Below are positions 4,501-27,124 of a DNA stretch of 44,947 nucleotides, piece after piece. Made by a program: the position numbers and the translations under genes. Source of the DNA: Salinimicrobium sp. (GTDB lineage: Bacteria; Bacteroidota; Bacteroidia; Flavobacteriales; Flavobacteriaceae); contig JAGXIM010000108.1 of NCBI GenBank assembly GCA_024635665.1, positions 1 through 44,947 on the forward strand. Direction: 5' to 3'. The notes under the pieces are model-generated. The model saw only the letters and a program-made list of their open reading frames with translations. It did not search any database and was not told the origin of the DNA. Numbering within the stretch: the first letter of the stretch is position 1; each line of letters begins with the position of its first letter.

Positions 4501-4536
4501 TGTCCTTTTCTGATTCAAAACACTGGATTATACTTG
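4501..4536 (+). promoter_or_regulatory. Late-module promoter P1
   Basis: TGTCCTTTTCT (4501-4511) - N16 - TTATACTTG (4528-4536); ATG at 4541. Confidence 0.8.
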
Positions 4537-4540
4537 TAAA

Positions 4541-4993
4541 ATGCTGCAAACCCGGAATTCAAATCTCATTGTCAATATTTGCGAGGTGCAACTCAAGAGC
4601 GCACACGGATCTACATTTCCCGCCCTTGCCGAAATATATACCAGCCTGTCCAAGATCAAGTGGAGTTCTTCCCCATCCACTACCAATGACGGGACCCTGT
4701 ACAAAAATAAACTCAGCATCATATATCCCGGACTTTCACAATCCCAATTTTTGGAACTGGATAAATTCATTCGTGGCCTTTACCAGGTTCGCGTGATCAC
4801 AGATGCCGGGGAGCGGTACCAGTTGGCGGGTGATGAAAACCCGATGGAAGTGGAGGCCAATTTCAACGGCGGTGCCACCGAGATTAATTTTTACCATTCA
4901 GCAATAGAACCCATTCAATATTTAGGCAATTCTGCCGAAGAAGCTGCGGCCGAAATTGGCTTCCCTTATTACTTAACTTTTAACCTGGCGTAA
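4541..4993 (+). CDS. Phage structural protein, first gene of fibre module
   Basis: 150-aa ORF directly after P1; overlaps next gene start. Confidence 0.75.
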   Translation: MLQTRNSNLIVNICEVQLKSAHGSTFPALAEIYTSLSKIKWSSSPSTTNDGTLYKNKLSIIYPGLSQSQFLELDKFIRGLYQVRVITDAGERYQLAGDENPMEVEANFNGGATEINFYHSAIEPIQYLGNSAEEAAAEIGFPYYLTFNLA

Positions 4994-7047
4994 TGGCATA
5001 TCCGGAAAAAATAACCTATAAAGAAAAATATAATTTAAGGCCCATTGTGGATCCAGACGGCCAATTCTCTGCTGAAGATGCCAACCAGTTAAAGGAAAAA
5101 TTCAACAAAAACGCCTTGTTTCACGGAGTCTATCCAAACCTTTCTACCCTGCAGACAGCTTTTCCTGATCCACAGGTGGGCGCGTTCGCTTATATGCTGG
5201 ATGGCAGCCATTATAAATGTGTAAGTGTAGGCTGGAAAAAGAGCCCAGGTATTTCCCCTTATGATTTAGCCGTTCAAAACGGATATGTGGGAGATTTGAC
5301 TTCCTGGCTTGCCAGTTTGGTTGGTCCACAAGGACCGGCGGGAAGTGATGGCTCCGGCACAACAGCATCCACCGAAATAATATCCTTTTCCACCAATTAC
5401 CAAAGCGGATTGACTTTCAGTCCCGCCTCGACTTTCAAGGAAAACGGAACACTTAAAAATGATTCTAGGCCAATCACTGCCGCTGCAGCAGACCCAACTT
5501 ACGACAGGTTTGACCTTTGGGCGATAGACTTGACCTTAGACCAAATTATCCTGATAAAAGGAACTGCGTCCGCAAATCCAGTTACGCCAGATTATGACCC
5601 GCTGACACAATTGCCAGCCAATATCATTTCCGTGAAAGCAGGGGCCATCGCTCCTGAAAACGTTGTGGGCATCACCATTTATGCCGAAGGCGGGGAATGG
5701 CCCACCGCGGGAGTTGCTGCATCAATACAATATCAAAACACAGAAAGTCCTGCGTCGGGAATTTATGCCGTTAAAACCACGATCCCGCTCAACCAGGGGC
5801 AGGTAGTGCCTTTTACCGCGCCTGTTCCAAAAACCTGGGAGGAGGGGATGGAAATAAGTTATAAACTTAAAAATATAGTAGGAGGTGTCTATCAGTGGCT
5901 TATTCAAGGCACGGACAGTAAAGGCAGGGCGAAAAGCCTTTTCATTAATGCGCCTTTCAACTACTCGGTTTCCTCTACTGTGTATCAACCTTTGTCGGTT
6001 GTAATTCCTTCGGGACTTGCCAGTATCACCAAGGTAAGTATCTACAGTGTCAATAACGGACTTCAATTCTTTCTTGACGATGTAAAACTCGTCACCGGCG
6101 GCGGTGCTGTTACAGGAGATTACGCCACTGTGGGTTATGTGGATGCTAAAGATGCGGAAACACTTGCGGCTGCTAAAGCCTATTCAGATAGTTTAGTTAT
6201 TGGCGGTGGTTCAGGCAACTGGAAAGAAAACGAATACCTCACCATCACAGAACTGCTCGCAAACCAAGCCAGCCAAAATGCAGGGAAATTACAGCACATA
6301 TTGGATGCTTCCATAGACGCTACCGTTACTACAGGATGGGCAACCTATGAACTTTTAGGAGCAAAAACAGGCGTACTTGGAGATTACCGGAAGTTGAGCG
6401 AGAAGGAGAGTATGGATGTTGCAGCGGTTGGGGCTTCAACAACAGAACAAACACTAACAGATGCATCAACTTTATCTTGGGATTTGTCAACCCAACAATT
6501 AGCCTATTTATTAGCAACTTCAGCGGTTGGAAACACCAGAACACTTCCTAATTCAATTATAGCTTCAGGGCAAGATTCAGGGAATTATCAGTTGTTTTTT
6601 AAGCAGGATGCTACAGGTGGTAGAATTATTTTATTTGAGGATAGCTTTACGGTATTTGGGGATTTCAATTTACAAGCAAATGGAGTAACGGTTATTTCAT
6701 TGGTTACACGGGGAACGGATAGTGTGGTTGTTTTAACTGCGGAAGTAGCTACAAATGCACCTCAAAACCTCACGGGAACAGAACTTGAAATGTCGCAGCC
6801 TTTGGGGAATGTGTACAATATAGCCGCTCCAAGCGCATCACTTTCTTATACGACCATAAACCCCGTAATTAACGGGAACAACAGTTGCTTTATCAATGCT
6901 GCAAGTGAACCAATTGTGTATGAAACAGATGGAACAACCCCCGCCACCAAAATAGCAGGGGCAACTTTTGTGGCAAGTACACCTATGGAAATGGTAGTAG
7001 AGAGTAAAGACGGTTCAACAATAAGATATTTCTTTTTAGAATTATAA
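4993..7047 (+). CDS. Tail fibre-like protein
   Basis: Short collagen-like GPQGPAGSDGSG, repetitive beta-rich C-terminus, fibre-module position. Confidence 0.75.
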   Translation: MAYPEKITYKEKYNLRPIVDPDGQFSAEDANQLKEKFNKNALFHGVYPNLSTLQTAFPDPQVGAFAYMLDGSHYKCVSVGWKKSPGISPYDLAVQNGYVGDLTSWLASLVGPQGPAGSDGSGTTASTEIISFSTNYQSGLTFSPASTFKENGTLKNDSRPITAAAADPTYDRFDLWAIDLTLDQIILIKGTASANPVTPDYDPLTQLPANIISVKAGAIAPENVVGITIYAEGGEWPTAGVAASIQYQNTESPASGIYAVKTTIPLNQGQVVPFTAPVPKTWEEGMEISYKLKNIVGGVYQWLIQGTDSKGRAKSLFINAPFNYSVSSTVYQPLSVVIPSGLASITKVSIYSVNNGLQFFLDDVKLVTGGGAVTGDYATVGYVDAKDAETLAAAKAYSDSLVIGGGSGNWKENEYLTITELLANQASQNAGKLQHILDASIDATVTTGWATYELLGAKTGVLGDYRKLSEKESMDVAAVGASTTEQTLTDASTLSWDLSTQQLAYLLATSAVGNTRTLPNSIIASGQDSGNYQLFFKQDATGGRIILFEDSFTVFGDFNLQANGVTVISLVTRGTDSVVVLTAEVATNAPQNLTGTELEMSQPLGNVYNIAAPSASLSYTTINPVINGNNSCFINAASEPIVYETDGTTPATKIAGATFVASTPMEMVVESKDGSTIRYFFLEL

Positions 7048-7048
7048 T

Positions 7049-8650
7049 ATGGGATTAAGGGAATTACATAGAAGAAGATTTTTAACCGTGGCCGAACCTC
7101 CCGTTTCGCCCGCAAATACCTTTATTGGTGGTGTAGCAACTTCCATACCTACCAAAGCGGCACTGGCGACAAAACTAGGGATTTTAGAAGGTGATATTTC
7201 TTATTTTGCGGTCGTTGGGAGTGATATAGAAGCCACAATAGATGTTGATTACGTTATTCTAGGCAGTACTTTTGCGGATGATGTGGACATTACGGATTAT
7301 AAAGATACGGGGAAGGTTACATCAGTGGACGGGTTTGCTTTTTCACATCTTAGCAGCCAAGGAACTTCAAAATTAAAGAATATTGTCCTCCCGAACGCCA
7401 CGTTTGTGGATCGCTACGCATTTTCTTATTTGAACGCCATCGAAAAAATAGAGTTAAATTCCCTGATAACTCTTAATGGTGATAATCATTTTAAAAATTC
7501 CGGGGCTAAAATTTACATACCATCCATAGTAAGTATTGGAAATAATACCACTTACAGTACCATCTTTGATAATACTACGGCACGCAAAACGACTGTTTAC
7601 CTACCACCTTCCTTCGCTACGGTCAACGGAGGTGGGGAAGAACCCGATATAGCTAGCGCTAGAAGTCAAGGGGCAACAATTAACTATATTCAAAACCAAA
7701 CCGCCCCGAACCAAATCACGGATTTAAGTGTTAACACTGTTTTCGCCACCGCCTTACAGCTTAATTTCACGGCTCCTATAGGCAGTATTAATGCTATCGG
7801 ACATTACCAAGTATATGCTAACGGGTTTTATAAAGGTTTTATCACACCTGGCGGGTACGTAACAGGATTAAAACCTGCCACGGATTATTCGATAGAGGTC
7901 AAACCCGTGGATATTTACTACAATAAAAGCACATCGAATATTGTTGCACAGACCACAGCAATATCAGAACCTTACCCTGTTTCCGAGATTGTTTCCTATT
8001 ACAAAACAGAGAGCAATGTTTTGGATAGTTGGGGAACAAATAACGGAACAGCAAATGCAATCGCTTATGCATCCGGATTGGTAGGTCAAGCGGCTGTAAT
8101 GAACGGCACAACAAGTGAAATATTGATACCAGACAATGATTCATTGAGTTTTAACGGGGTTTCCGCAGATAAACCTTTTAGCATGACTCAAGTGATTAAA
8201 TTTTCAAGTAATGGGGATAGGTGCTTGTTTATGAAGGGTACTCTTTCAGATAGGGAATATGACGGATTTTTATTAGCCTCAAATAAGTTAGCGTTTAGGA
8301 TTTTCGACAAAACTGCTACCTCTGCTATTTATATTCAATGTAGTATTGACTTCACACCAACACTAGGTAGTTATTATGTAATTCATTGGATGTATTCCGG
8401 TAATAGATTGAATACAGGAATGAATATTTATGTGGAGGAAGTCAAAGGAACTCAAATACTTTCATCCGCAGGAACATTCACAGGAATGGGAAATAAAAAC
8501 CTTTCTCTTGGATTGGGAAAAATTCCTGGATATAGTTCTTTGAATTTAAGCGGAAGCTTGGAAGAAAATATTATATGGAAAACCGAATTGAGTGAATCGC
8601 AAGTTTCCGGAGTAGTTTCTAAAATTAGAACAGGGCAGTCATTAATATAA
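7049..8650 (+). CDS. Tail-associated adhesin: BspA-like LRR + FN3 + LamG-like domains
   Basis: VTSVDGFAFSHL...LKNIVLPNATFVDRYAFSYLNAIEKIEL (LRR_5-like); PNQITDLSVNTVFATALQLNFTAP...TGLKPATDYSIEVKPVD (FN3); C-terminal concanavalin/LamG-like domain. Confidence 0.8.
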   Translation: MGLRELHRRRFLTVAEPPVSPANTFIGGVATSIPTKAALATKLGILEGDISYFAVVGSDIEATIDVDYVILGSTFADDVDITDYKDTGKVTSVDGFAFSHLSSQGTSKLKNIVLPNATFVDRYAFSYLNAIEKIELNSLITLNGDNHFKNSGAKIYIPSIVSIGNNTTYSTIFDNTTARKTTVYLPPSFATVNGGGEEPDIASARSQGATINYIQNQTAPNQITDLSVNTVFATALQLNFTAPIGSINAIGHYQVYANGFYKGFITPGGYVTGLKPATDYSIEVKPVDIYYNKSTSNIVAQTTAISEPYPVSEIVSYYKTESNVLDSWGTNNGTANAIAYASGLVGQAAVMNGTTSEILIPDNDSLSFNGVSADKPFSMTQVIKFSSNGDRCLFMKGTLSDREYDGFLLASNKLAFRIFDKTATSAIYIQCSIDFTPTLGSYYVIHWMYSGNRLNTGMNIYVEEVKGTQILSSAGTFTGMGNKNLSLGLGKIPGYSSLNLSGSLEENIIWKTELSESQVSGVVSKIRTGQSLI

Positions 8651-8656
8651 ATAAAT

Positions 8657-8788
8657 ATGATTTTAATAAATATAGGGTTTAAACACGCAAGGAATAAAAT
8701 CAAAAATTCCAGTTTAGCAACTTTAACAAGTCAAGTGATTAGCAATGACAATCCTGTAACAAGTAATAACGAACCTGTAACAATATAA
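8657..8788 (+). CDS. Small hypothetical protein (43 aa), absent from ORF track
   Basis: ATG-TAA frame MILINIGFKHARNKIKNSSLATLTSQVISNDNPVTSNNEPVTI filling the gap between two fibre genes. Confidence 0.55.
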   Translation: MILINIGFKHARNKIKNSSLATLTSQVISNDNPVTSNNEPVTI

Positions 8789-8790
8789 AT

Positions 8791-9858
8791 ATGGCATTAG
8801 AATTAAACAATGTAGGATGGTATTTTGCAGAAAATTACGCAAACTTACAGCTAGCGATTGACGCTATTCCCGCTACTGGTGGAACTCTTATTTTATCAAA
8901 TAAAGTTTATGACCTATCGGCATCACCATTAGTCATAGATAAGCCTATTACCATTATCGGTCAAGGTGGGGAAGATACTTATTTGCAACATTATAAAACG
9001 CTTTTATATAGTAATTCCGCTACCGCTGATATGGTAACGGTAAACCATCCTAGTTTTATGATGAGTGGTGTTGGATTTAAAAATACCAATGCGAATGTAA
9101 CGGCAGGGAGTGGTTTAAAAATAGATATAAGAGGAACACACCCGACCAATAATGGATTGTTTCCTGATGGTGTAGGTTCAAATTTCAATTTAAGGGAATG
9201 CACTTTTAATGGGTTTTACAGAAATGTGGATATTGTTAATGCTTTTGAATGGAACATTACAGATTGTATGTCGCAAAACAGCAAAGAAGCGGGAATCCAC
9301 GTAGCATCAGAACAATTGCCAGATGGAGGGGATGGAAACATTACGGGTTGCCAAATATTATCAGGAAAATATGGGGGTGGGAACGCTATACTTCAAAACA
9401 GTTCAGGTGGGCTGAAAGTAACTAACACTAAAATAAATCAGGGCAGACACGCTAACGCTGGAAAGTTTGTAGATACCATTGTTTTTTTGGGGGATTATGC
9501 CAATACCCCTGTAGGAGTTCAGGCATCAACAGTTATATTACTATTGTCAGGATTGTCCATTGAGAATTTCACAGGCTATGCAGTGAATATTGATGGACTC
9601 CCCGCTGTCAATATTTCAGATTGTCAAATTGATTCATATATAACGACACCCGGCATATTTAATTTCACTAACTGCACCCGGGGAATTATAGGCGGTATAA
9701 CAGCTATAAAAAGGGGTACAACAGCAAATTTCGCATCGTTCACGGGTTGTTCTGACTGGGAAATATTAAACAGTATGACAGCAAGTTGGGGAGCTTCTGC
9801 GTATTCCTTTACAAATTGCACTAATATGAGGAAAGCTGCTGATACCGTAGTTATTTAA
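8791..9858 (+). CDS. Tail spike, right-handed beta-helix (pectate-lyase-like)
   Basis: YANLQLAIDAIPATGGTLILSNKVYDL...PITIIGQG then repeated coils (GCQILSG, ITDCMSQNSKEAGIHV). Confidence 0.8.
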   Translation: MALELNNVGWYFAENYANLQLAIDAIPATGGTLILSNKVYDLSASPLVIDKPITIIGQGGEDTYLQHYKTLLYSNSATADMVTVNHPSFMMSGVGFKNTNANVTAGSGLKIDIRGTHPTNNGLFPDGVGSNFNLRECTFNGFYRNVDIVNAFEWNITDCMSQNSKEAGIHVASEQLPDGGDGNITGCQILSGKYGGGNAILQNSSGGLKVTNTKINQGRHANAGKFVDTIVFLGDYANTPVGVQASTVILLLSGLSIENFTGYAVNIDGLPAVNISDCQIDSYITTPGIFNFTNCTRGIIGGITAIKRGTTANFASFTGCSDWEILNSMTASWGASAYSFTNCTNMRKAADTVVI

Positions 9859-9870
9859 ATTAATTATGAT

Positions 9871-10362
9871 ATGAAAACACTATTCTTTTTACTCATCACA
9901 TTAAGCCTGTCAGCTCAAAAGAAGATGGTGCTTATCGAAGGATTTCAAGGGCATGAAATTGAAGTTCCTGATAGTGTAGCAAATGCAAGTGTTAAAGAAT
10001 TTTATTGGTACGCAAATAAAAGTCGAGTAGACTATGAAACGAATTTACATTTTCTAAAATCAGTGATTGTAGTGGACATGAATAAATCCAAAATGTACTA
10101 CTACGATAAAGGTGTGATTTATTTAAATTCATACTTAAATGATTATCCAAACTTTAAACGAGTAGTAATCTTTCACGCAATCTTGCATCATGTTTACGGA
10201 GTTCCTAAAACAAAAGGCAAAAGCCTTGATGTAATGAATGAGCATTTTTATGTAGATGATTGGTCGGAAGGAAAATATAAAAATAGAAGAACTCGTAAAA
10301 CAGATATTAAAGATGCAATGGCAGAATTTGAAATACATAAACCCTTAAATACTAAAAACTAA
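9871..10362 (+). CDS. Secreted zincin-like protein with degenerate active site
   Basis: Signal peptide MKTLFFLLITLSLSAQ; VVIFHAILHHVYGVPKTKGKSLDVMNEHF resembles HExxH..G..H...MN with E replaced by A. Confidence 0.6.
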   Translation: MKTLFFLLITLSLSAQKKMVLIEGFQGHEIEVPDSVANASVKEFYWYANKSRVDYETNLHFLKSVIVVDMNKSKMYYYDKGVIYLNSYLNDYPNFKRVVIFHAILHHVYGVPKTKGKSLDVMNEHFYVDDWSEGKYKNRRTRKTDIKDAMAEFEIHKPLNTKN

Positions 10363-11027
10363 TGAAAAAATCCCTTTTAATTTTATTGATGATTCTTACA
10401 GCTTGTACTAATACTCCTGTAGAAAATGTTGAGCCTATTGATAACAACGTAAACACTTGGACTGATGGTGTAATTCCTTATGGCTTTGAAGATAATGTGC
10501 CAGATGCACAGAAGGCTATTATACTTGATGCAATGGCAACCTATGAGAGCTTCTTAAATGTAGATTATGTAGAATATTCCATTGAAGATTTACTGAAATT
10601 AGAAAATGGATTACTGATTAAATATACGGGTGCGGTTCAAAGTTCTGTATATCCTTCTGGAATGCCAGAATACATTTCAGACTTTAGGGTAGGAGATATA
10701 AGATGGTTTGAAGAGAAAGATGCTTTGCACGAATTAGGTCATAATCTAGGCAGAGAACACGAACAACAATTAGCAAACGCTTTAGAGTATTTGATTATTG
10801 ATTATGATAATATCGCTGATGGGTGGAAACGGAATTACGAGCTAGGAGAAACTATCTTTTTAACTCCATTCGATTATAACTCAAATATGATTTACGGTAG
10901 TTACGATGCTAGTAAAGACCAAAGCAAACCCGTAATGACCGACTTAGAAGGAAACACTTTTGAACCAAGTGAAACACTAACAGAATTAGACAAACAGAAA
11001 TACATAGAGCTTTACGGCAAAAAATAA
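10362..11027 (+). CDS. Astacin-like zinc metalloprotease, predicted lipoprotein
   Basis: Lipobox LTAC; ALHELGHNLGREHEQ = HExxHxxGxxHE; possible Met-turn SNMIYGSYD. Confidence 0.85.
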   Translation: MKKSLLILLMILTACTNTPVENVEPIDNNVNTWTDGVIPYGFEDNVPDAQKAIILDAMATYESFLNVDYVEYSIEDLLKLENGLLIKYTGAVQSSVYPSGMPEYISDFRVGDIRWFEEKDALHELGHNLGREHEQQLANALEYLIIDYDNIADGWKRNYELGETIFLTPFDYNSNMIYGSYDASKDQSKPVMTDLEGNTFEPSETLTELDKQKYIELYGKK

Positions 11028-11033
11028 ACAATT

Positions 11034-11528
11034 ATGAAAAAATTCTTGTTCAACATCAATTCAACTTCCTTTTTTCCGAGGTGGAAAAATGGAAAGTATT
11101 CCAAGTTCGAAGTATTCTATGTACTAATGGCCCTCACCGCCATACCACTTGCAGCAGCTATAGTCTATGAAGGTTCCAATCATCTTGGCTATGGATCCCT
11201 TTCTAAATGGGTTAGTATCCCTTTTCTCATCTTTTGGGCTCAGTACATTGTGTTTGCTTTGATAAAGAGTAAGATCCCCTTTGAAGTTGAAGATCACTTC
11301 TGGAAGACACAGCTTTGGCGGTTTATGGATCCCGGCTACAACTTTCAAAAGTCTCTTCATCCTAATCCCATCAAAAGGTTTAAGTACTTGAAGCTTAAAT
11401 GGCTTATGGAAACAGGTGTTACAGCTGATTATACTTTACACAATTCACCTTGGATTCAAAAGGGTAGGATAATTATACTACTTGGAGCTGTTCTTATAGG
11501 AGTTTTGATAGGACTCTATATCCTATGA
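11034..11528 (+). CDS. Membrane protein, hypothetical
   Basis: Three apparent hydrophobic segments; overlaps next gene (ATGA). Confidence 0.75.
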   Translation: MKKFLFNINSTSFFPRWKNGKYSKFEVFYVLMALTAIPLAAAIVYEGSNHLGYGSLSKWVSIPFLIFWAQYIVFALIKSKIPFEVEDHFWKTQLWRFMDPGYNFQKSLHPNPIKRFKYLKLKWLMETGVTADYTLHNSPWIQKGRIIILLGAVLIGVLIGLYIL

Positions 11529-12073
11529 TCACCGATAAAGAAATACAAGCTTATTGGAACTGGTATGACTGGTTTATTATCCGATGGAACTGTGTTTCCT
11601 TCTTTGGATTTCCACTTATACCATTTGCATATATTTTAAAATACTGGTTTAATGTAAAAGGTTTATGGCTTCTTAATGATACGCCAGACGGTGATTTCGG
11701 CAGTAAGTCAGAACTTAAAAAAGCAGGCAGAAAAGAAGGAAGAACATTAAGCAATTTTATTTGGTGGTGGCGGAGAAACCACAGCCGAAATTTCGTCGAA
11801 AAGTTTACCCCTGAATGGAACGGTGGGGAAGTTGATGAATTTAGAATTTTAGCACACGATATTCCTTTAGGAGCGCATAGGTTTGAATGGTGTACAAAAG
11901 CAGGTTTCCACGGTATTAATTACGTCGCCTATAGGATTAACGGAAAAGTAGAATGTAGGTACTCCGCAGCCAGTGATGAGTTTGAAAAATCAATGGGTAG
12001 TGGAGGCAATGAATACAGATTAAGAATAAAAAACCCTTTATATATATTAAAAAACCGATTTTATAAATTATAA
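11525..12073 (+). CDS. Hypothetical phage protein with N-terminal hydrophobic segment
   Basis: 182-aa ORF in lysis cluster. Confidence 0.75.
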   Translation: MITDKEIQAYWNWYDWFIIRWNCVSFFGFPLIPFAYILKYWFNVKGLWLLNDTPDGDFGSKSELKKAGRKEGRTLSNFIWWWRRNHSRNFVEKFTPEWNGGEVDEFRILAHDIPLGAHRFEWCTKAGFHGINYVAYRINGKVECRYSAASDEFEKSMGSGGNEYRLRIKNPLYILKNRFYKL

Positions 12074-12081
12074 TCCCCCCA

Positions 12082-12696
12082 ATGTTCTACTCACTAAAAC
12101 TCATATTCTTTAAAGTTTACGTCAACCTGCTTATATTTTCAGAAAGCGCTGGCGATCCTATACACAGACTAGAAAGCTTAGTCAGAGTACTCACTTATAT
12201 TGCACCTGTAGCCTTTATTATAGGTGTTCTGGATCTTTGGTACCAGGATAATAGCACTTTCACATTATCAGCAGTAGGATTTGTTTTCGCTAATGCTATT
12301 ATAGGAATGATTGCTCATTTTGTGAGAAAGGATTTTAATTGGGAAGTTTTTCTAACAAAGACAATGAAGATGGTTCTTATCATCTCCGGAGTTTATTTTA
12401 TACTGGAACTTATGATTTCTCCTATTGGTGATAATACTATCACCGATGGGTTTAGATCTACTATTCAGGTATCGACACTTCTATGGCCAGGAGGAAAAAT
12501 CTTAAAGAATTTCTTTATTTGGAGCGATGGAGAGCACCCGCCAAAATGGGTAATGGAAAAGTTATACAATTTTCAAAAGAACGGTGATCTCAATGCTTTC
12601 TTGAATAAATCTGAAAGAGACGAGCATAGACATTACCAGAACGAGAATGATAGCGAACAGGAACCACCGAGGTACAATAAAAACAATCGAAGATGA
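12082..12696 (+). CDS. Holin-like membrane protein
   Basis: Several TM segments and a charged C-terminal tail, immediately before the endolysin. Confidence 0.55.
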   Translation: MFYSLKLIFFKVYVNLLIFSESAGDPIHRLESLVRVLTYIAPVAFIIGVLDLWYQDNSTFTLSAVGFVFANAIIGMIAHFVRKDFNWEVFLTKTMKMVLIISGVYFILELMISPIGDNTITDGFRSTIQVSTLLWPGGKILKNFFIWSDGEHPPKWVMEKLYNFQKNGDLNAFLNKSERDEHRHYQNENDSEQEPPRYNKNNRR

Positions 12697-13304
12697 ATCA
12701 ATTACAGCTTTTTCAAAAAAGAAATTATCTGGTTCCTGATGGAGTCATAGGAAAAAATACGTTACGAAAAATGAAAGAGGTATTTTTCATTTCTTCTGAT
12801 GCTAAGCTAGCGCATTTCGTTGGACAGATGGCTCACGAGTCTAAGAATTTTACAGCTTCAGTTGAGAATCTTAACTATTCTGAAAGTGGACTACTAAAAA
12901 CATTTAGGAAATACTTCAATAGGGAAACAGCTGCTTTATATGCCAGAAACCCGGAGAAAATAGCTAATAAAGTTTATGCTAATAGAATGGGTAATGGGAA
13001 TGAAGCAAGTGGTGATGGATGGAAACATCGTGGACGTGGCCCATTGCAAATAACAGGAAAAAATAATCAAGAACAGTTTGCAAATAAAATATGTGATTTA
13101 AGAATACTTGACAACCCTGCTATAATAAGTGAAGCGTATTATTTTGAATCGGCCTTATTCTTTTTCGATGAAAATAATTTATGGCACTTATGTGAGGAAG
13201 TGGATAATCAAAGTATCATCAACCTCACAAAACGAATCAATGGCTGGGTGAATGGCCTTCAGGACCGCATTTACCTGACCAATAAATATTATGGGATGCT
13301 ATGA
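12693..13304 (+). CDS. Endolysin, GH19 chitinase-like
   Basis: LAHFVGQMAHESKNFTASVENLNYS...NGNEASGDGWKHRGRGPLQITGKNNQEQFA. Confidence 0.9.
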   Translation: MNQLQLFQKRNYLVPDGVIGKNTLRKMKEVFFISSDAKLAHFVGQMAHESKNFTASVENLNYSESGLLKTFRKYFNRETAALYARNPEKIANKVYANRMGNGNEASGDGWKHRGRGPLQITGKNNQEQFANKICDLRILDNPAIISEAYYFESALFFFDENNLWHLCEEVDNQSIINLTKRINGWVNGLQDRIYLTNKYYGML

Positions 13305-13642
13305 AATTTGAAGCCAAAGACATCCTATATATTGCCCTGCTGTTTGCAGCGGGTTACTTGATCTTTAATTTAAATTCTGAATTGGCTGGAGCCAACAAAT
13401 CAATTAACACGCTGAATGTGGAATTGGAAGATCAGAAGGCCGTGAATATGGAAGCCTATAGCATTTTAGAGGATAAAATCAACTCACAGGTTGATTTGAC
13501 CGAAAAACTGCAAGTTGATATCAATTCCCTGGAGAATTCAAAGAATATCATTTATTTTAAAGCCAATGAAAAAAAGACTGTTATTAACCGTGTTCATAAT
13601 GCTGATAGCCTGGCCGGTATTATCTCAAGAAGATACCGTTAA
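13301..13642 (+). CDS. Rz-like i-spanin
   Basis: N-terminal TM (ILYIALLFAAGYLIFNL) then coiled coil; follows endolysin. Confidence 0.65.
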   Translation: MKFEAKDILYIALLFAAGYLIFNLNSELAGANKSINTLNVELEDQKAVNMEAYSILEDKINSQVDLTEKLQVDINSLENSKNIIYFKANEKKTVINRVHNADSLAGIISRRYR

Positions 13643-13934
13643 ACTTCCGTTTGATATTGCGAAGCAGGTAGCCCTGGATCTGGTTGAACTGGATGAACTC
13701 CGGGCCACTGATTTAATCAATACGATTATAATCAGCAAATATAAGTCTGCAGACCAATTACAGAAACAAACAATATCAGACCAGGACCAGCAATTGCAAC
13801 TGATATTGAAGAACCTTGGCATCACGGAATCCCAATTAAAAGCTGAAAAAGCAAAGAAACCGGGATGGTTCCGGCAATTCGTGATCCTACTGGCAGCAGG
13901 CGGGGTTGGATATTTGATTGGCGCAGCAAATTAA
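13566..13934 (+). CDS. Rz1-like overlapping partner (signal peptide and C-terminal TM)
   Basis: ATG at 13566 gives MKKRLLLTVFIMLIAWPVLSQ; +1 frame relative to the Rz-like gene, 77-nt overlap; C-terminal FVILLAAGGVGYLIGA. Confidence 0.65.
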   Translation: MKKRLLLTVFIMLIAWPVLSQEDTVKLPFDIAKQVALDLVELDELRATDLINTIIISKYKSADQLQKQTISDQDQQLQLILKNLGITESQLKAEKAKKPGWFRQFVILLAAGGVGYLIGAAN

Positions 13935-13953: not shown

Positions 13954-13970
13954 TTTAACATTATGTTAAA
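13954..13970. promoter_or_regulatory. Operator-like palindrome
   Basis: TTTAACAT-t-ATGTTAAA, 8 nt upstream of TATATTTG (13978-13985). Confidence 0.6.
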
Positions 13971-13977
13971 AAAATGC

Positions 13978-13985
13978 TATATTTG
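13978..13985 (+). promoter_or_regulatory. -7 element TATATTTG of host-type promoter
   Basis: Exact TAnnTTTG upstream of GTG start at 14003. Confidence 0.55.
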
Positions 13986-15606: not shown

Positions 15607-15624
15607 CCAAATACTTAAAAACCA

Positions 15625-17796: not shown

Positions 17797-17803
17797 TCAA
17801 AGG

Positions 17804-17826
17804 CTCCCGGGAAACCGGGGGTTTTT
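17804..17826 (+). terminator. Terminator-like hairpin after capsid gene
   Basis: CCCGG-gaaa-CCGGG followed by ggTTTTT. Confidence 0.7.
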
Positions 17827-17849
17827 ATTAATCTTAATACATAAAAAAG

Positions 17850-18683
17850 ATGTCATTTATAAAAGTAAATATCCCAAAAACCAATATTGCCGGTGCCGGA
17901 GCGGCGCAGGGAAAAAACACCAATATTGTTTTATTTGATTGGGCAGATGTTCTAAGTACCCCTACCAGGGACAGTAAAGGAATAAAAATGGTGGGGAGTT
18001 TTGTCTTCAAGTCAGGGAAATATGCGATCAAGATCTATGCTACTTCCAGCTCCATTTCCTTACCGCGTTCAAGCGAGGGAGAAGAAGATTCCATGTCCTT
18101 CCAGGCATTGCCTGAATTCACTCATCCGGGTTCCCCAGTTGAGTTAGAAGAATTTTTAGCTAATATGACCAACCGAGCAGTCGGTTTGGCTGTAGAAGTT
18201 GGAGATTGTGACGGAAGTGAAGCTCCTTATTACAAGGTATATGGAAGCCGCTGCAACCCTTTGAGCCTTATGGTGGAAGGGACAGATAACAATGAAGGTG
18301 TAAAAGACCTTATCAAATTTCAGCAATTCAGAAGAAGTCAGAGCTTACCTGGTAGATACTACAGTACTTTCACTTTTGATGAAGCGACCCTTGTTGATGT
18401 TGATGCTGTAGCTGTAGATGTTGCCGCAGGAAGTGGTGAATACCAACTTCAGGACAACACTGTGCCAACCGCGATCACCGATCTTACAAATGCAGAACAA
18501 AATGGCACTTATACCTTGATAGGTAGCGGTGGCACCAACCCTGCAACGATCGCGAGCGGCGGGAACTTTATCCTTGCCGGTGCAGCCGGGTGGACAGGAC
18601 TTGCCGGTGCCAGGATCACGCTTAAAGCATTCGAACAGGCCGCAGGCGTGTTTGTGTTCTTTGAGCATAGCAGGAGCATATAA
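17850..18683 (+). CDS. Minor capsid/decoration-like protein with one copy of the capsid beta domain
   Basis: C-terminus TAITDLTNAEQNGTYTLIGSGGTNPATIASGGNFILAG matches the capsid C-terminal modules. Confidence 0.7.
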   Translation: MSFIKVNIPKTNIAGAGAAQGKNTNIVLFDWADVLSTPTRDSKGIKMVGSFVFKSGKYAIKIYATSSSISLPRSSEGEEDSMSFQALPEFTHPGSPVELEEFLANMTNRAVGLAVEVGDCDGSEAPYYKVYGSRCNPLSLMVEGTDNNEGVKDLIKFQQFRRSQSLPGRYYSTFTFDEATLVDVDAVAVDVAAGSGEYQLQDNTVPTAITDLTNAEQNGTYTLIGSGGTNPATIASGGNFILAGAAGWTGLAGARITLKAFEQAAGVFVFFEHSRSI

Positions 18684-18917: not shown

Positions 18918-18953
18918 TGTCCTTTTGTTACCTCGATCTAAATGCTATGTTTG
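18918..18953 (+). promoter_or_regulatory. Late-module promoter P3
   Basis: TGTCCTTTTGT (18918-18928) - N16 - CTATGTTTG (18945-18953; TATGTTTG matches TAnnTTTG). Confidence 0.75.
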
Positions 18954-18987: not shown

Positions 18988-19938
18988 ATGAGCCACAAGA
19001 ACCGCGTAATTGATTTCATTAAATTTGACCGCAGCCTCACCGGGGCAAAACAACTTTACAATTCCCTTCCAAACAAATCTTTATCCTTCCTTGGCAGCTT
19101 TAACAGGATGCGGGACACTGAAGCAGATCGTAAACTGGTAGCCTACCACTTATGCAAAGCTGTAGGACTTGAGGAACGGCAAATGCTGGCGCTTTGGGGA
19201 ACTAAGGTGCAATCGCAACCGGAAGAAGAAAAAGAGCAGCCTGAGATGGTTGTGGTTGATTTCCCCGGTACTCCATTGGAAAAAATTCTTTCATTAAATC
19301 CTGCCACAGCCTCCTGGAAAGAAATTCAGGAATTAGCGGGCGCATTGTCTGATGATAGTGAGCGCGATCCTAAAGGCCGTAAAAAGGTGGACCTCCTTGC
19401 CTTTATTAAATCGGAAAGGGAACTGGCAATTGTGGAGACTTCAAAGGAAGTTCCGATAGAAGTCAAGAAAACAATAAAACTTCGGGAACAATTCCCATTT
19501 TTAAGGGAGAAAGATTGTCCGGATATTTTAAAACTTTTGGTAAACGAGATGATCACCGCTTATGAAAAATATAAGGCAGGCAGAAGCCAGTTGTTCAATT
19601 CGCTTACCGCTGAAGAGGAAGCCTTGTTGTCCCGTGATATAGTCGATAATTTTATCGAAAACAAAGAGGCTTTTGCCGAATTGGAGCATTATAAAAACAA
19701 CGGGCAGATCCTTGGCGCACATCCAATCTTTGAAGCGCAAAAAATCAAGGAAGAACTGGATGCATTAAATGCCGAAGAACTGAGTTTGAAAGCCAGTGCC
19801 CTTCGAAAAAATATTTCTACCAACAAGAAGAAATCGGAAGCAGCAGATAATGTGGAAGACCAGGCAAAGTATGATGCCGCTGTGGAATTATATAGCTGGC
19901 AATCACAATATGTAAAATCATTGCTCAAGAAAAAATAA
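18988..19938 (+). CDS. Hypothetical phage protein, first gene of terminase module
   Basis: 316-aa ORF after P3. Confidence 0.8.
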   Translation: MSHKNRVIDFIKFDRSLTGAKQLYNSLPNKSLSFLGSFNRMRDTEADRKLVAYHLCKAVGLEERQMLALWGTKVQSQPEEEKEQPEMVVVDFPGTPLEKILSLNPATASWKEIQELAGALSDDSERDPKGRKKVDLLAFIKSERELAIVETSKEVPIEVKKTIKLREQFPFLREKDCPDILKLLVNEMITAYEKYKAGRSQLFNSLTAEEEALLSRDIVDNFIENKEAFAELEHYKNNGQILGAHPIFEAQKIKEELDALNAEELSLKASALRKNISTNKKKSEAADNVEDQAKYDAAVELYSWQSQYVKSLLKKK

Positions 19939-19941
19939 GCA

Positions 19942-20268
19942 ATGCATTCCAGAGAAGTGATATTGAATGAACTGGATAGCCAGCTTCTTGCAGATGTGAG
20001 AAAGCTGGCTTCTCGCAATTTTGGTCCCAGTGATATTGCATTGAAACTGGGAGTGAACAAATCCAGTTTTCTGAATATCTGGCGGGACAAGAAATCTACT
20101 ATTAGGGAAGAATATGAAGCCGGGAGATTATCAATTCAGTATAAAAAAATGAAGGCCTTGAATAAAGAAATTAAAGGCGGAAATATTACGGCTATCCAGA
20201 TCCACGATAAAATGCTTTTGGAAACTGAATTTGAAACCAAGAAAAAAGAAATATTCGGACTTGAGTAA
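19942..20268 (+). CDS. Small HTH protein (terminase small-subunit-like)
   Basis: FGPSDIALKLGVNKSSFLNIWRDKKSTIREEYEAGRL. Confidence 0.65.
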   Translation: MHSREVILNELDSQLLADVRKLASRNFGPSDIALKLGVNKSSFLNIWRDKKSTIREEYEAGRLSIQYKKMKALNKEIKGGNITAIQIHDKMLLETEFETKKKEIFGLE

Positions 20269-20272
20269 GATC

Positions 20273-20902
20273 ATGGAGAAAATAGCAGAAGGCGAACATT
20301 ATCAACTATTGGAACAATGGTCGGGTGATGAGAGCGTGGTCCTTCCGGATGAAATTCACGATTATGTGAAACAACTGGAATATGCCAGGGGTTTTATATA
20401 TTCCGGCGCTTCCCCCAATAACGCATCCAGAAAATTAAAGGTTCATTTTCCCGATCTTTCTATGAAGCAGGCGAAATCCCGAGTGCGCGATGCCGTGGAG
20501 TACTTTTATATTGATGGGGACTTAAAAAAGGATGCTTACCGCCAGATTCATTACGAAAAGCAAATGCAGGCGGCGCAGCTTGTTTTGGAGACCGCCAGAT
20601 CTGCAGCCGATATAAAGATAGCTTCCGAAATTTGGGAGCGTGCCGGAAGGGCAAAACAATTGCACCTGCCGGATGCCGAGGAATTTCCAGAAGGAATGTT
20701 TGAACAAAAATGGAAGATCTATTCTCTGGACACTTCAGATGTTGGACTTCCAGAACTGGCAGACCGGAACCAACTGGGTGCAATGATAGACAGCTTCAAT
20801 GTTACGGAAGCGGAAAAGATTCGTTTAAAACAAGATGCCGGAGTAGAACCCCGCGAAATATTGGATTTCAATGGCCAGAAAGAGAGCGCTCCCGAAGAAT
20901 GA
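20273..20902 (+). CDS. Terminase-associated protein (possible small subunit)
   Basis: In-frame ATG at 20273 just after the upstream stop; overlaps the large terminase start. Confidence 0.65.
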   Translation: MEKIAEGEHYQLLEQWSGDESVVLPDEIHDYVKQLEYARGFIYSGASPNNASRKLKVHFPDLSMKQAKSRVRDAVEYFYIDGDLKKDAYRQIHYEKQMQAAQLVLETARSAADIKIASEIWERAGRAKQLHLPDAEEFPEGMFEQKWKIYSLDTSDVGLPELADRNQLGAMIDSFNVTEAEKIRLKQDAGVEPREILDFNGQKESAPEE

Positions 20903-22583
20903 AATAGATGTTGAATTGCGGTATGCCAACTGGCTTTCCCAAACGATATTAATGCTGCAGCCCAAAAACTTGGGTTTGGTGGCAGGCCGTGGAGCCGCAA
21001 AAACCACTGATATTTTTTCCCAACGCCTTCAGGATATTTCTTATGATATGCCCGGCTGTTATATTGCCATTTCCAGTGATACTTTTATGAATGCCAGGAA
21101 GAACGTTGTGCCTTCTTTAATTGAGGGTTGGAAGCGGAATGACTGGCAGGAGGATTATCATTTTGTCATTAATAGAAAACCGCCTTCTCATTTCGATAAA
21201 CCTTACAAAGCGCCAATTGAATGGAAGGACTCCATGACCATCCACAACGGTACGCACTATAAAATCATTTCACAGGACAGGCCTTCCGGTGGTGCAGGGG
21301 ATTCTTATCAGCATGTAGGCGGTGATGAAGTAAAATTCCAATCGGAAAAGAAAATAAACAAGCTTACGCCCGCGGTTCGTGGTGGTGAAATCAAATACCG
21401 GAATTCCCCGTATTATGGAGGCAGGACTTTTATGACGGATATGCCCAACACAAACCACGGGGAACACGACTGGATTTTGCGGATGGAAAAGAACATGAAC
21501 GTGGAACAAATAACGCTGATGCTTCATTGTGCTTTTACCATTAACCAGATCAAGATCGAGCTTTACCACGCGGAGAATTCCAAGGATGCCAAAAAATATG
21601 AGAACACAAAAAACAAGCTTGATCGCTGGATAGAGCGGTTCAGGTTGCTTAGAAAAAATTCGACATTCTTTTATATTGCCAGTTCCCTTGTGAACGCTGA
21701 TTTTTTAGGCTTCGATTATTTTAAGGAGCAGCTGGAGACCATGATATTTTCGGAAGTAGCATCTTCCATTTTTTCAATCACTCCAAAACTGGAAAAAGGA
21801 AAGCAGTTTTATCCCACGCTTTCCCAAAAGAACTTTTATAAAGATGGTTTCAATTATTCCAGGGTAGATCAAATTGCCTGGGAAGAAGAGATCGAGGAAC
21901 TATCCCTGGACCTAAAATATATAAATCACGAACAAGCCATTGAGGGCGGCCTTGATACCGGGAATATGTGTTCATTGGTTACCGGTCAGGACCAGGGGAA
22001 GGCGAATCGGATCTTAAAAGAGTTTTATACCATTCCGGGTACCACCCAGCAATGGATTCCGGAACTGGGTGAGAAATTTGTCGAGTTCTATAAATACCAT
22101 CGGGAAAAACATTTGTTGCTTTATCCGGATAGGTCCACGCATCAATATAAAAAGGTGGGGGAAGACCATGCTTCAAAATTCAAGAAAGCGGTTGAGTACG
22201 ATAAGAAAGGAAATTCGACAGGCTGGACGGTGACCATAATGAATGAAGGTCAGGAGACCATAAGTCAGCAAGCGGAATTTGAACTGGCATTTATCATGCT
22301 GGAGGGATCACATCCGGAACTTCCGGAAATATTACTGGATCAGCACAACTGCAAATGTTTGAAGTCTTCAATGGAAGGAGCAGAGAAAATCCTTCGGGTC
22401 ACTCCAAACGGGGATAAATCAATTCACAAAAATAAATCTTCAGAAAAATTACCGGAAGAGCACCTTCCAATGCGCTCCACAAACTTCAGTGATGCGTTCA
22501 AGTATTATATATGTCGGCCGCACTATTTTGAGAAAATCGCAGGTTACAGGATCCAATTCACCGGATTGCCAGGGGTACGATAA
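20871..22583 (+). CDS. terL: Terminase large subunit
   Basis: Walker A-like LVAGRGAAKTTD, Walker B-like HVGGDEVKF, terminase size and position. Confidence 0.85.
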   Translation: MARKRALPKNEIDVELRYANWLSQTILMLQPKNLGLVAGRGAAKTTDIFSQRLQDISYDMPGCYIAISSDTFMNARKNVVPSLIEGWKRNDWQEDYHFVINRKPPSHFDKPYKAPIEWKDSMTIHNGTHYKIISQDRPSGGAGDSYQHVGGDEVKFQSEKKINKLTPAVRGGEIKYRNSPYYGGRTFMTDMPNTNHGEHDWILRMEKNMNVEQITLMLHCAFTINQIKIELYHAENSKDAKKYENTKNKLDRWIERFRLLRKNSTFFYIASSLVNADFLGFDYFKEQLETMIFSEVASSIFSITPKLEKGKQFYPTLSQKNFYKDGFNYSRVDQIAWEEEIEELSLDLKYINHEQAIEGGLDTGNMCSLVTGQDQGKANRILKEFYTIPGTTQQWIPELGEKFVEFYKYHREKHLLLYPDRSTHQYKKVGEDHASKFKKAVEYDKKGNSTGWTVTIMNEGQETISQQAEFELAFIMLEGSHPELPEILLDQHNCKCLKSSMEGAEKILRVTPNGDKSIHKNKSSEKLPEEHLPMRSTNFSDAFKYYICRPHYFEKIAGYRIQFTGLPGVR

Positions 22584-22780: not shown

Positions 22781-22816
22781 TGTCCTTTTCTTATTGCGGG
22801 GCCTTCGTTAATATTG
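22781..22816 (+). promoter_or_regulatory. Late-module promoter P4
   Basis: TGTCCTTTTCT (22781-22791) - N16 - TTAATATTG (22808-22816); ATG at 22822. Confidence 0.8.
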
Positions 22817-22821: not shown

Positions 22822-23085
22822 ATGAAGCTCAATACATACACTATCGAGGAAGCGATCACCCTTATGAGGAACCTCTCTAAGTTCCATAAGACCTTCAGCA
22901 TTAAATTCAGGAAGATAGGAGGGGGGGATAGCATTATAAGTAAATGCAGTCTTAGGCCGATGGCTACCACTGCATCAGATAAATTCGGGGCGTATAAGCT
23001 CCAGCTTACCAACGAGGAAAACAACACACAGCGCAGCTGCTACATCCCACTAATTAAAGAGGTCAACGGAATAAAAGTCGATTAA
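22822..23085 (+). CDS. Hypothetical protein (revised start, MKLNTYTIEEAITLMRN...)
   Basis: In-frame ATG 5 nt after the P4 -7 box; the 22780 GTG start would lie inside the promoter. Confidence 0.75.
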   Translation: MKLNTYTIEEAITLMRNLSKFHKTFSIKFRKIGGGDSIISKCSLRPMATTASDKFGAYKLQLTNEENNTQRSCYIPLIKEVNGIKVD

Positions 23086-23086
23086 T

Positions 23087-24457
23087 ATGACAGGACACAG
23101 ATTATCTAATAACGAATATCTAGGAGTATCAAACGGCAAAGCGAACTACTTCCAGATCCAGGGTAGGGATGCAACCGGTTCCAATGCTTCAAAAAGTACT
23201 GAGGACTTCAATGCCTGGAAAGAAAACACATTGAATCTTGGGGATTATAAGGTTATCCCATTTGGATCCAACAATGATATCCCTAATGAATTACAGGAAA
23301 CAATCTTCCCTAATCACTTAGCGCCCGGCGTACTGGATAGGAAGGTTGAGCTGTTGTTTGGTCAGGGGCCTTACCTGTATCAGCTTAAACCGGACGGAAA
23401 ACAATTCTCCCGAATCCCTGTAGAAGATGCGAACATTCAAGCCTGGTTAGATTCTATAGATTACGAAACATCCTTAATAAAGAATGCTACCGAGTACTAC
23501 TATGCCGAGCAGATTTATACCAAGATACGCCGCGGGATGGGAGCACGTATAGGCAGGACGGACGTATCTGCCGCCGGGGTTGAAACATTGAGCAATGTCA
23601 ATTGTAGGCTCGCATATAAGCGAAGTGATGCCAAGAAAACACCTACACATGTGATCGTAGGGGACTGGAAAAACTCAACAGATAAAAAAGATTTCGAGGT
23701 TTTTCCTATCTGGGACAAGAATACACCAGACCGCTACCCAATATCCATTCATATCACCGGCTTTAAATCCTTTGGATTGCCGCATTATGTGCTTCCTAGC
23801 ATCTATGGCACGCTCAATTGGATCCGTAGATCTACCATAGCGCCAAAGATCATTGAAGCTTTTACCAATAATTCCTTGAATATCCGCTTTCATATCACAT
23901 CCCCACAGAAATTTTGGGATGATCAGCGTGCAATTATGATGAAAAACTGCACCGCTCAGAAGATTAAGTTCACCGAGAAAATGATGCAGGACCTTGAAGA
24001 TAAGATATTCGATGGCCTTTCTGATGTGCTTTCAGGGGTTGAAAATGTTGGGAAATTCTGGCACAATAAGACAGTGCAGTCCTTTATTGGCGGAAAAGCC
24101 GTTGAAGAAGGCTGGAAGATCAGCCCAATTAAACAGGAGGTAAAAGAGTATGTGGATGCCCAAATTGCAGTGGCCAATAAGTCTGATTTTGCCGTACAGG
24201 CCGGATTGAGGTTGCACGCCGCCCTTGCTTTTGTGGGTGCCGATGGTAAAAGCGATTCGGGAAGCGAACAATTGTACGCCTACCTGATCCATCAACTCAC
24301 TGCCTTGCCAATAGCCGAACTTTTTGTTTGCAAGGGCCTTAACGATCTTATAAAGCACAAATTCAACACCAATATAAGGGTTGGGTTCTACCAGGTCCAG
24401 GCGCAAAAACAGGAAGATACATCAGAATCCAAAAGGGTTAAAAACACCACCGTATAA
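23087..24457 (+). CDS. Portal protein
   Basis: 456-aa ORF after terminase; FGSNNDIPNELQETIFPNHLAPGVLDRKVELLFGQGPYLY style portal N-terminus. Confidence 0.75.
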   Translation: MTGHRLSNNEYLGVSNGKANYFQIQGRDATGSNASKSTEDFNAWKENTLNLGDYKVIPFGSNNDIPNELQETIFPNHLAPGVLDRKVELLFGQGPYLYQLKPDGKQFSRIPVEDANIQAWLDSIDYETSLIKNATEYYYAEQIYTKIRRGMGARIGRTDVSAAGVETLSNVNCRLAYKRSDAKKTPTHVIVGDWKNSTDKKDFEVFPIWDKNTPDRYPISIHITGFKSFGLPHYVLPSIYGTLNWIRRSTIAPKIIEAFTNNSLNIRFHITSPQKFWDDQRAIMMKNCTAQKIKFTEKMMQDLEDKIFDGLSDVLSGVENVGKFWHNKTVQSFIGGKAVEEGWKISPIKQEVKEYVDAQIAVANKSDFAVQAGLRLHAALAFVGADGKSDSGSEQLYAYLIHQLTALPIAELFVCKGLNDLIKHKFNTNIRVGFYQVQAQKQEDTSESKRVKNTTV

Positions 24458-25398
24458 TGAAAATACTATTCAATAAAGCCGAAGCCGGTCAAGATGAAGT
24501 TAAAGCCCTTCTGGGTTTTATGAATGCCGATATCACCTACAAAAACCTTGAACCAGATATTGAACTCAACACACCTTACCTGGTACATTTTATTGGGCAG
24601 TCGGTTTATGATAAAATTGCGACCTTTTACGAATCTCCCCAAACTGCTGAAGGATTTGAAGTTTTAAAACCTATCCTGAAATGTGCCCAGCTTTATATTC
24701 TGCTAATAGCATATTTGGAATATGCCTCAAACGGTGACCTTAACCACGGCAATAATGGACGTAAAGCCATATTTGCCGCCAATGAAAAAACGCCATGGGA
24801 CTGGCAAATCAAAGCAGATAACGGAGCCTTGGAGCGCAGGGCATATAAAGCGCTTGATTTGCTTATTGATTTGCTTACCAGTGCAAAATATGATGAATGG
24901 ATAACCAGTGAGCCTTATAAAGCGGCAAAGGCCCTGTTCATTCCCACTACCAATTCATTTCAAAAAATCTACCCCATTAACCACAGCGGACAGTTGTTTT
25001 ACCGCCTCGTGCCATTTATGGCCGATATTGAACAGGAAAACATCCTTGCGATCCTTGGGGAAGTAAAATACCTCGAATTGAAAACCGGGATTCCAGCTAC
25101 TATTCCTAAAATCGATTTTAACCTACTGACTTCCTATTGCCGAAAAATAACAGCATACCTGGTTATTGATCGCGCCTGGAGCATCCTTCCGGAAGAAATG
25201 TTGGGGGAACCCGTGAATTACAAGCTTACCGACACTGCCCGCGCAGACCTTCGGGAAAAACGCTCCATTGCGCATTTAAAACGTGTTCAGGTATATGAAC
25301 GTGACCTTCAAAGCATCCTTGCACGCCTTGATCTGGAAGTTTTTTCGGTAGATCAAACCCACGGCATCAACCCGGAAAACAAATATTTGAACCTCTAA
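24457..25398 (+). CDS. Head-tail connection protein, putative
   Basis: Overlaps portal stop; position downstream of portal. Confidence 0.55.
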   Translation: MKILFNKAEAGQDEVKALLGFMNADITYKNLEPDIELNTPYLVHFIGQSVYDKIATFYESPQTAEGFEVLKPILKCAQLYILLIAYLEYASNGDLNHGNNGRKAIFAANEKTPWDWQIKADNGALERRAYKALDLLIDLLTSAKYDEWITSEPYKAAKALFIPTTNSFQKIYPINHSGQLFYRLVPFMADIEQENILAILGEVKYLELKTGIPATIPKIDFNLLTSYCRKITAYLVIDRAWSILPEEMLGEPVNYKLTDTARADLREKRSIAHLKRVQVYERDLQSILARLDLEVFSVDQTHGINPENKYLNL

Positions 25399-25409
25399 CC
25401 AAACAACTA

Positions 25410-25709
25410 ATGAACAAATTCAAACAATTCTTTAAAGCTATCTGGCATTTCTTTCTGAAACTCACCCCAAAAGGGCGGGAAAATCTTTATTATCAGGCAG
25501 CGCTTGACAATATGAAAGGTGTAAATGAGGAGAAACAACTCATAAAAAGTAAATTAAAGCAGGAAATGGACAGCTTCCTGAACCAAAAGAATATCAGGAA
25601 ATTGACTGTATCTCAAAAAGAACTGCTTTTGCAGGATAAATTCGGAAAACCAATGAAATACTTCGGTTTTAAATTGCATCCGGAATCTAAAAAACTGATC
25701 AATGCATAA
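25410..25709 (+). CDS. Hypothetical phage protein
   Basis: 99-aa ORF between structural genes. Confidence 0.65.
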   Translation: MNKFKQFFKAIWHFFLKLTPKGRENLYYQAALDNMKGVNEEKQLIKSKLKQEMDSFLNQKNIRKLTVSQKELLLQDKFGKPMKYFGFKLHPESKKLINA

Positions 25710-26550
25710 AATCAAATTCGGAAAAATAGAGCTCGATTTCCCTGAAAGCATTTCAGAAATGACAGAACCTCAATTCCGTTATTTCTCGTTTTTGGAAATG
25801 AACCGCCAACTGGGAAAATTGACCATGGAAGAACTGGAGGTGCTATTCGTGTATTTTGCAATGAACATGCTCCGGGCTTCAGAAACTCCTTTGGTGGTTG
25901 AAAATGTCACCAATCTCAGGAAATTGGTACAGCCTTATTTCACCACTCAAACTGTAAAGGGAAAAAAATATACCATCCTGGACCTCAATTTTGTATCGAA
26001 TTTGATCCCTGTCATTGAAATTAAAGGCACAAAACTATATGGTCCAGATGCGGCGCTCCAGGATTGCAGCTATGAACAGGTTTTTGTTCACGGACAAAAT
26101 GCATTGCTGGATTTTTCAAATGATAGGGATGAAGGGTATTTGGATCAGTTGGTTGCTGTTTTATACCGCCCCATGCACAAGGGAAAACGTGTTAAATTCA
26201 ATGCCGAAACCTATGAAGAGCGGTTGGAGCTTGTAAAGCAATTGCAGCCTGAAATAAAGTTTGCCGTGTACCTGTTCTTTGCCAGCTGCCATAAATTCAT
26301 CACCACGGCCAACAATCTCAATATAGGCGGTGGTACCAGTATAGATGTGGCCCAATTGTTCAAGCCGGACCCTTCACAGGGAAAAGCCAAGGGAATAGGT
26401 CCTGCGGGCATCATCTTCACCATTGCCGAAAGCGGTGTTTTTGGAAATGCCAGGGAAACCGCCGGGGAAAATGTTTTCACGATATTATCACGAATGGTGC
26501 AATTGCACGAACAATATTTAGAACAAAAACGAAATGCTAAACGCAAGTAA
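25702..26550 (+). CDS. Hypothetical phage structural/assembly protein
   Basis: 282-aa ORF overlapping neighbours. Confidence 0.7.
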   Translation: MHKIKFGKIELDFPESISEMTEPQFRYFSFLEMNRQLGKLTMEELEVLFVYFAMNMLRASETPLVVENVTNLRKLVQPYFTTQTVKGKKYTILDLNFVSNLIPVIEIKGTKLYGPDAALQDCSYEQVFVHGQNALLDFSNDRDEGYLDQLVAVLYRPMHKGKRVKFNAETYEERLELVKQLQPEIKFAVYLFFASCHKFITTANNLNIGGGTSIDVAQLFKPDPSQGKAKGIGPAGIIFTIAESGVFGNARETAGENVFTILSRMVQLHEQYLEQKRNAKRK

Positions 26551-26989
26551 ATTAAAAAGCTTTCTGGAATTGGCAAAGCAGAATGTGCCGGAGATCAAAC
26601 AATCTTTCAGGGTGATCCAGGATGAAGATGTGGCCAAATTCACCAGGGCAGTCACCTCCAGCGGTGGGAATATCGTGATCGTTGGCGTATTGCCCTCCAT
26701 GGGCCTTGATTTCCAAAACCTCGATAACTTTCGCCACAACAATAAAATGCAGCTATTTATACTTCAAAAATACGATACCACGAGTGGGGAAGAGGCTTTG
26801 ATGCAATTGTTTGATGATATCTCCGCCGTGGTTTTAAAGTTTGAAGCCTGGATGTTCCTTGAAAGCGATAAATTTCCCTGCCCCCCAATATTCAAGGAAA
26901 TAAAGTTTGAAACCTTCACCGCAGATCCCGTGAGCAATTACTTTGGGTTTTGCGGCTATATGATACAATTCCAATTAAAAACAAAATAA
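26534..26989 (+). CDS. Hypothetical phage head-tail/tail protein
   Basis: 151-aa ORF overlapping the upstream gene. Confidence 0.7.
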   Translation: MLNASKLKSFLELAKQNVPEIKQSFRVIQDEDVAKFTRAVTSSGGNIVIVGVLPSMGLDFQNLDNFRHNNKMQLFILQKYDTTSGEEALMQLFDDISAVVLKFEAWMFLESDKFPCPPIFKEIKFETFTADPVSNYFGFCGYMIQFQLKTK

Positions 26990-27060
26990 CCCCAATGAAA
27001 TTTCTGAAACACGTTATACAGATTCGTTCGCCGGTGCCTCACCGCCCGCGTACGTCTGTC

Positions 27061-27087
27061 AAAAACCACCTCTACGGTGGTTTTTTT
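27061..27087. terminator. Bidirectional terminator
   Basis: AAAAACCACC-tctac-GGTGG-TTTTTTT, directly abutting P5. Confidence 0.9.
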
Positions 27088-27088
27088 A

Positions 27089-27124
27089 TGTCCTTTTCTC
27101 ACTTCAATTCTTCCGTTATACTTG
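27089..27124 (+). promoter_or_regulatory. Late-module promoter P5
   Basis: TGTCCTTTTCT (27089-27099) - N16 - TTATACTTG (27116-27124); ATG at 27131. Confidence 0.85.

Follow-up and report, generated by a model that had tools for sequence, protein, structure and literature searches.

At the middle promoters of phage T4, which carry a MotA box and work by sigma appropriation, the -35 contact is supplied instead by a DNA-binding protein of the phage and the -10 box is retained; a second factor, AsiA, is needed to remodel sigma. In phage Mu, the late promoters lys, I, P and mom are served by host polymerase together with activator C, whose binding site adjoins or covers the -35 box (PMC4461284). 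Primary sigma promoters of Bacteroidota read TTTG-N19-21-TAnnTTTG. Their sigma-A -7 box TAnnTTTG has been placed at -12 to -5, and leaderless mRNAs amount to only 5.5% in F. psychrophilum (PMC9723704). The open papers searched on phages of Bacteroidota gave no description of the late promoter treated here or of its control.

The DNA analysed here (the window) is a contig of 44,947 nt that corresponds to IMG/VR UViG_3300033553_000697. The same sequence occurs at 1-85 and 44888-44947, and these identical ends indicate that the genome is circular or has terminal redundancy. The phage is temperate; its genes encode a tyrosine integrase, a head protease and a tape-measure protein. Megablast of the window against known phages gave no match; its portal is 52% identical to that of Cellulophaga phage Ingeline and 39% to that of Flavobacterium phage laban6-1, and the common portal, capsid, terminase and other late genes make it Duneviridae-like. 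The features relevant to its late transcription are the following.

107-137, + strand: ordinary sigma-A promoter (for contrast), TTTG-N19-TATATTTG, ahead of early genes.
4501-4536, + strand: putative late promoter P1, ahead of the module for tail fibres and lysis (4541-13934); transcription is predicted to begin with the A of ATG 4541.
13955-13985, + strand: putative promoter of gene 14003, with palindrome TTAACATTATGTTAA at 13955-13969 and -7 box TATATTTG at 13978-13985.
14003-14536, + strand: proposed late activator gene, 177 aa, GTG start, PHROG 21888 (function unknown), immediately upstream of P2.
14550-14558, + strand: sixth TGTCCTTTT, without a -7 box, 14 nt past the stop of gene 14003.
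14657-14692, + strand: putative late promoter P2, ahead of the module for the head protease and major capsid (14716-18683); gap to the ATG 23 nt.
18918-18953, + strand: putative late promoter P3, packaging module 18988-22583; near-consensus -33, TTTG-N18-TATGTTTG.
22781-22816, + strand: putative late promoter P4, portal/adaptor module from its ATG at 22822 to 26989; a leader of about 1 nt is predicted.
27089-27124, + strand: putative late promoter P5, neck, tape-measure and tail module from 27131; predicted leader about 2 nt.
38037-38630, + strand: LuxR/GerE-domain regulator in the early region, a rival activator candidate.

The five copies of a 36-nt element reported in the initial annotation are all exact at P1-P5, with five on the + strand and none on the - strand, and the strict pattern was absent from 300 Markov-1 sequences of equal length. 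No further exact copy was found in the host MAG (2.16 Mb), where allowing up to 2 mismatches returned a single additional site, with 2 mismatches, on another contig; a search of 11 further genomes from the genus of the host likewise gave no exact match. Relatives conserve the motif in the form TGTCCTTTT-N19-TAnnnTTG, the CT/GT after TGTCCTTTT and the Y before TA being conserved no further than the close relatives of the window phage. The early promoters of the type TTTG-N19-TA at 107-137 and 37433-37463 are present as originally described; a tandem repeat, TGAGTAAAATAGTTyG, lies over an early promoter at 37420-37465 and is operator-like. P5 is located directly 3' of a hairpin and T-run. The sixth TGTCCTTTT had been overlooked earlier. 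It recurs, without a -7 box and at the end of the gene 14003 homologue, in Ingeline (L108, 33305), in B. thetaiotaomicron phage BT-TP2 (L111, 6028) and in relatives, close ones among them (L035, L008, L010, L011 and L051); possibly it is an autoregulatory site.

The downstream part of the element was found to be the host sigma-A -7 box (TAnnTTTG or TAnnnTTG) in all five promoters, which bears out the likeness originally noted. With this box placed at -12 to -5, TGTC falls at -40 to -37, and TTTT spans -35 to -32. TGTCC is thus no plain substitute for the -33 box, as the TTTT of TGTCCTTTT fills the -33 place and TGTC is situated directly upstream of it. None of the five promoters carries TTTG 19-21 nt upstream of the -7 box: P1, P2, P4 and P5 have TTTT, and in P3 a change of C to G creates a TTTG 18 nt ahead of TATGTTTG, so that P3 reads TTTG-N18-TATGTTTG with a near-consensus -33. 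Compared with primary sigma promoters of Bacteroidota, P1-P5 therefore share the -7 box, whereas TGTC and lineage-specific bases stand in place of the -33 TTTG in P1, P2, P4 and P5. A set of 44 TGTCC-type sites displayed sharp boxes and a near-random spacer, of which only the columns not used in picking the sites, by parts of both boxes, are informative. The predicted +1 is A in 75% of sites, and in 24 of the 44 an open-frame ATG starts 4-7 nt past the final base of the -7 box, in 17 of those 24 exactly at the predicted +1. On this basis the mRNAs from P1, P4 and P5 would be nearly leaderless; predicted leaders are present at P2 and P3, and leaders are likewise present at TGTCACA-type promoters.

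Absence of the motif from related phages had been named beforehand as evidence against the element and was looked for; the motif proved to be present at module starts in many of them. Among 51 dereplicated relatives with portals 25-63% identical, the late strand holds 62 cases of TGTC-N24-TAnnnTTG and the opposite strand 7 with this spacing. Other spacings on the late strand gave 13 cases at 23 nt (partly the TGTCTTAA dialect) and otherwise 0-8. A test that made no use of TGTC, based on 7-mers repeated upstream of -7 boxes, had its maximum at offsets of 27-29, and this only for the late strand (23-25 cases, against 2 on the other strand), and this position agrees with the TGTC-N24 peak. Within each phage a single dialect is repeated, either TGTCCTTTT, TGTCCTCTTAA, TGTCCATTT, TGTnACA or TGTCTTAA, with TGTTACA, TGTAACA, CGTCACA and TATCACA as additional dialects. 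In Ingeline all five equivalent places have TGTCCTTTT together with a -7 box, and Christiangramia and Kordia prophages, BT-TP2 and a P. gingivalis phage have TGTCCTTTT at some equivalent module starts. Laban6-1, 6H and the Aquimarina and Muricauda phages are without TGTCCTTTT, and TGTCACA (in laban), TGTCTTAA (in 6H), TGTCCATTT or TGTCCTCTTAA fills the same intergenic place. In P2 of the close relative L008/L035, 11 of 19 spacer bases are changed and neither TGTCCTTTT nor the -7 box differs; between lineages, only the upstream half of the element varies. Polaribacter phage Leef_1 (Helgolandviridae) has TGTCCTTTT ahead of six genes, with weak -7 boxes. Judged by sequence, the same late switch would thus operate in differing dialects across many related phages of Bacteroidota. 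In a further genome, G462 (IMGVR_UViG_3300018475_000190), a terminator-like hairpin and T-run lie within the promoter spacer at 7879-7914, 14290-14325 and 42494-42529, where terminator and promoter seem to overlap.

In a gene-by-gene survey of the 51 window proteins against six other complete genomes (Ingeline, laban, 6H, BT-TP2, Pg019b and Leef_1), only late-module proteins, integrase, primase and protein 14003 are common to all six. The late proteins in this set include the small unknown protein encoded at 22822-23085, the first gene of P4. As the family is too divergent for direct alignment search, with few conserved stretches, subfamilies were used. Homologues were found in Duneviridae-type phages and, by profile, also in BT-TP2 and P. 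gingivalis phages. They are present in 36 of 40 records, the 4 misses being shorter records of 26-36 kb. The homologue adjoins the first late promoter in most inspected relatives, and in most inspected loci a TGT element follows within about 150 nt of its stop; in Bacteroides-type phages the site past the homologue is often without a clear -7 box. The PHROG 21888 profile matches 35 of 46 homologues (E=1e-6 for the window protein). No Pfam family and no recognisable DNA-binding family was found for protein 14003, and PDB sequence and fold searches gave no match. An AlphaFold2 model (pLDDT 84, pTM 0.79) consists of an alpha/beta front followed by three C-terminal helices, the predicted C-terminus being helical and terminating in a long basic helix. 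A fold search with this model returned one confident match, a 157-aa protein of Leef_1, which fits Leef1_39 on the grounds of equal length and a family profile match at E=1e-8.

Co-occurrence and adjacency make protein 14003 the best activator candidate, short of proof. The motif dialect tracks the tree of the activator candidate as well as that of the portal, hence the trees do not single out protein 14003, and as its gene lies within the late region, next to genes for capsid or lysis, it could instead be an assembly factor. A strict-motif scan of 2.9 million viral contigs identified gene 14003 homologues in 6 of the 24 contigs examined; divergence, chance motif matches or incomplete records are possible reasons for their absence from the rest. 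The palindrome TTAACATTATGTTAA was considered as a conserved operator and rejected, as Ingeline and G413 also have palindromes and the sequences differ. Perfect palindromes of differing sequence lie in the promoter region of the activator-candidate gene at 13955-13969 of the window, upstream of 32734 in L108 (26 bp, Ingeline) and upstream of 1486 in L221.

The LuxR/GerE-domain protein encoded at 38037, one of two activators suggested in the initial annotation, might instead read TGTC and activate the late promoters, with gene 14003 serving otherwise. GerE is a genuine DNA-binding domain with matches in 24 of 40 records, relatives of the protein occur in Ingeline, laban, 6H and Leef_1, and the early region is a natural place for the gene of a late activator. 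However, no relative is present in BT-TP2 or the P. gingivalis phage (GerE is lacking in BT-TP2 and Pg019b), and none was detected in G436, G437 and G439, all of which have TGTCC sites. Most TGTC dialects are also without the inverted repeats usual for LuxR dimers, and the LuxR protein could instead control gene 14003, in the promoter region of which a palindrome lies. We therefore regard this alternative as unlikely. The other suggested activator, the KilA-N protein (2568), was encountered among the compared phages only in Leef_1 and one other locus, and both it and the P22_AR_N protein (3198) were rejected as hardly conserved. Near-identical stretches of 60 bp precede these two genes (2508-2567 and 3138-3197), a partial duplication.

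It is still less probable that both boxes are recognised, with no separate activator, by a polymerase in modified form or by a phage sigma-like factor that escaped detection. Two fixed boxes at rigid spacing do resemble a sigma promoter, and protein 14003, being without a known fold, could itself be such a factor. Conversely, the -7 box is that of host sigma-A (TAnnTTTG at -12 to -5, PMC9723704), the change between lineages is confined to the upstream half, and the window proteins searched yielded no domain of a sigma factor or of an RNA polymerase. That TGTC serves as an operator for a repressor, or as some other DNA site, for example for packaging or replication, merely beside ordinary promoters is very improbable: the 14550 copy is conserved though it lacks a -7 box, but the exact spacing to the -7 box, the strand bias and the missing -33 TTTG are what an activator site would show, and the copies head late modules and no early gene.

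We thus consider it likely that the five elements are activator-dependent late promoters with protein 14003 as the best activator candidate; DNA binding, activation, timing and start sites are what we infer. The -7 box TAnnnTTG at -12 to -5 would be read by the RNA polymerase of the host, carrying the primary sigma factor of Bacteroidota. With the -33 TTTG absent or weak at the late promoters, the -33 contact would be taken over by a phage protein, most plausibly the product of gene 14003-14536, which would occupy TGTC (-40 to -37) together with neighbouring bases and recruit or activate the polymerase. As this would occur at all sites, the five modules would be switched on together, and every phage lineage would possess its own activator/site pair. 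The coordinated late transcription by host sigma and a phage activator proposed in the initial annotation is supported by the host -7 box, by the retention of the element at module starts in many relatives and by the lack of a sigma factor or polymerase among those window proteins that were searched.

A close parallel is Mu C, in that a few dispersed late promoters would be turned on together by one phage protein, and several late promoters with a common site next to the -35 box were indeed found. However, no Mor/C domain was detected by Pfam in protein 14003 and its relatives (46 homologues). The present system further differs in its Bacteroidota host with a TTTG/TAnnTTTG promoter, in its lineage dialects and in the many transcripts that would be leaderless. 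By analogy, late control would work like Mu C, with an activator outside the Mor/C family by domain test. The proposal also resembles the T4 middle promoters (PMC6755090) in that a -35-type contact would be replaced and the downstream box kept; no MotA or AsiA match was found in the window phage. The Duneviridae phages Ingeline, laban6-1 and 6H share the late genes, the promoter geometry and a 14003 homologue beside a late promoter, whereas laban has TGTCACA and 6H TGTCTTAA in place of TGTCCTTTT, and the regulon is unannotated in their records.

We lean, with some reserve, towards the broader view that protein 14003 founds a new activator family with a fold outside the PDB, which takes over the -33 contact from the unusual sigma factor of Bacteroidota and co-evolves with the lineage-specific sites in several phage families of gut, oral, freshwater and marine Bacteroidota, giving partly leaderless late mRNAs. 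The promoter code is readable from sequence alone, late modules can be recognised by the element in phages ranging from those of Cellulophaga to those of Bacteroides and Porphyromonas, and one unannotated gene, 14003, can be named as the likely master switch. The dialects provide natural variants for testing how an activator replaces -33 recognition by the Bacteroidota sigma factor, and matched activator/promoter pairs could serve as expression tools in gut Bacteroides.
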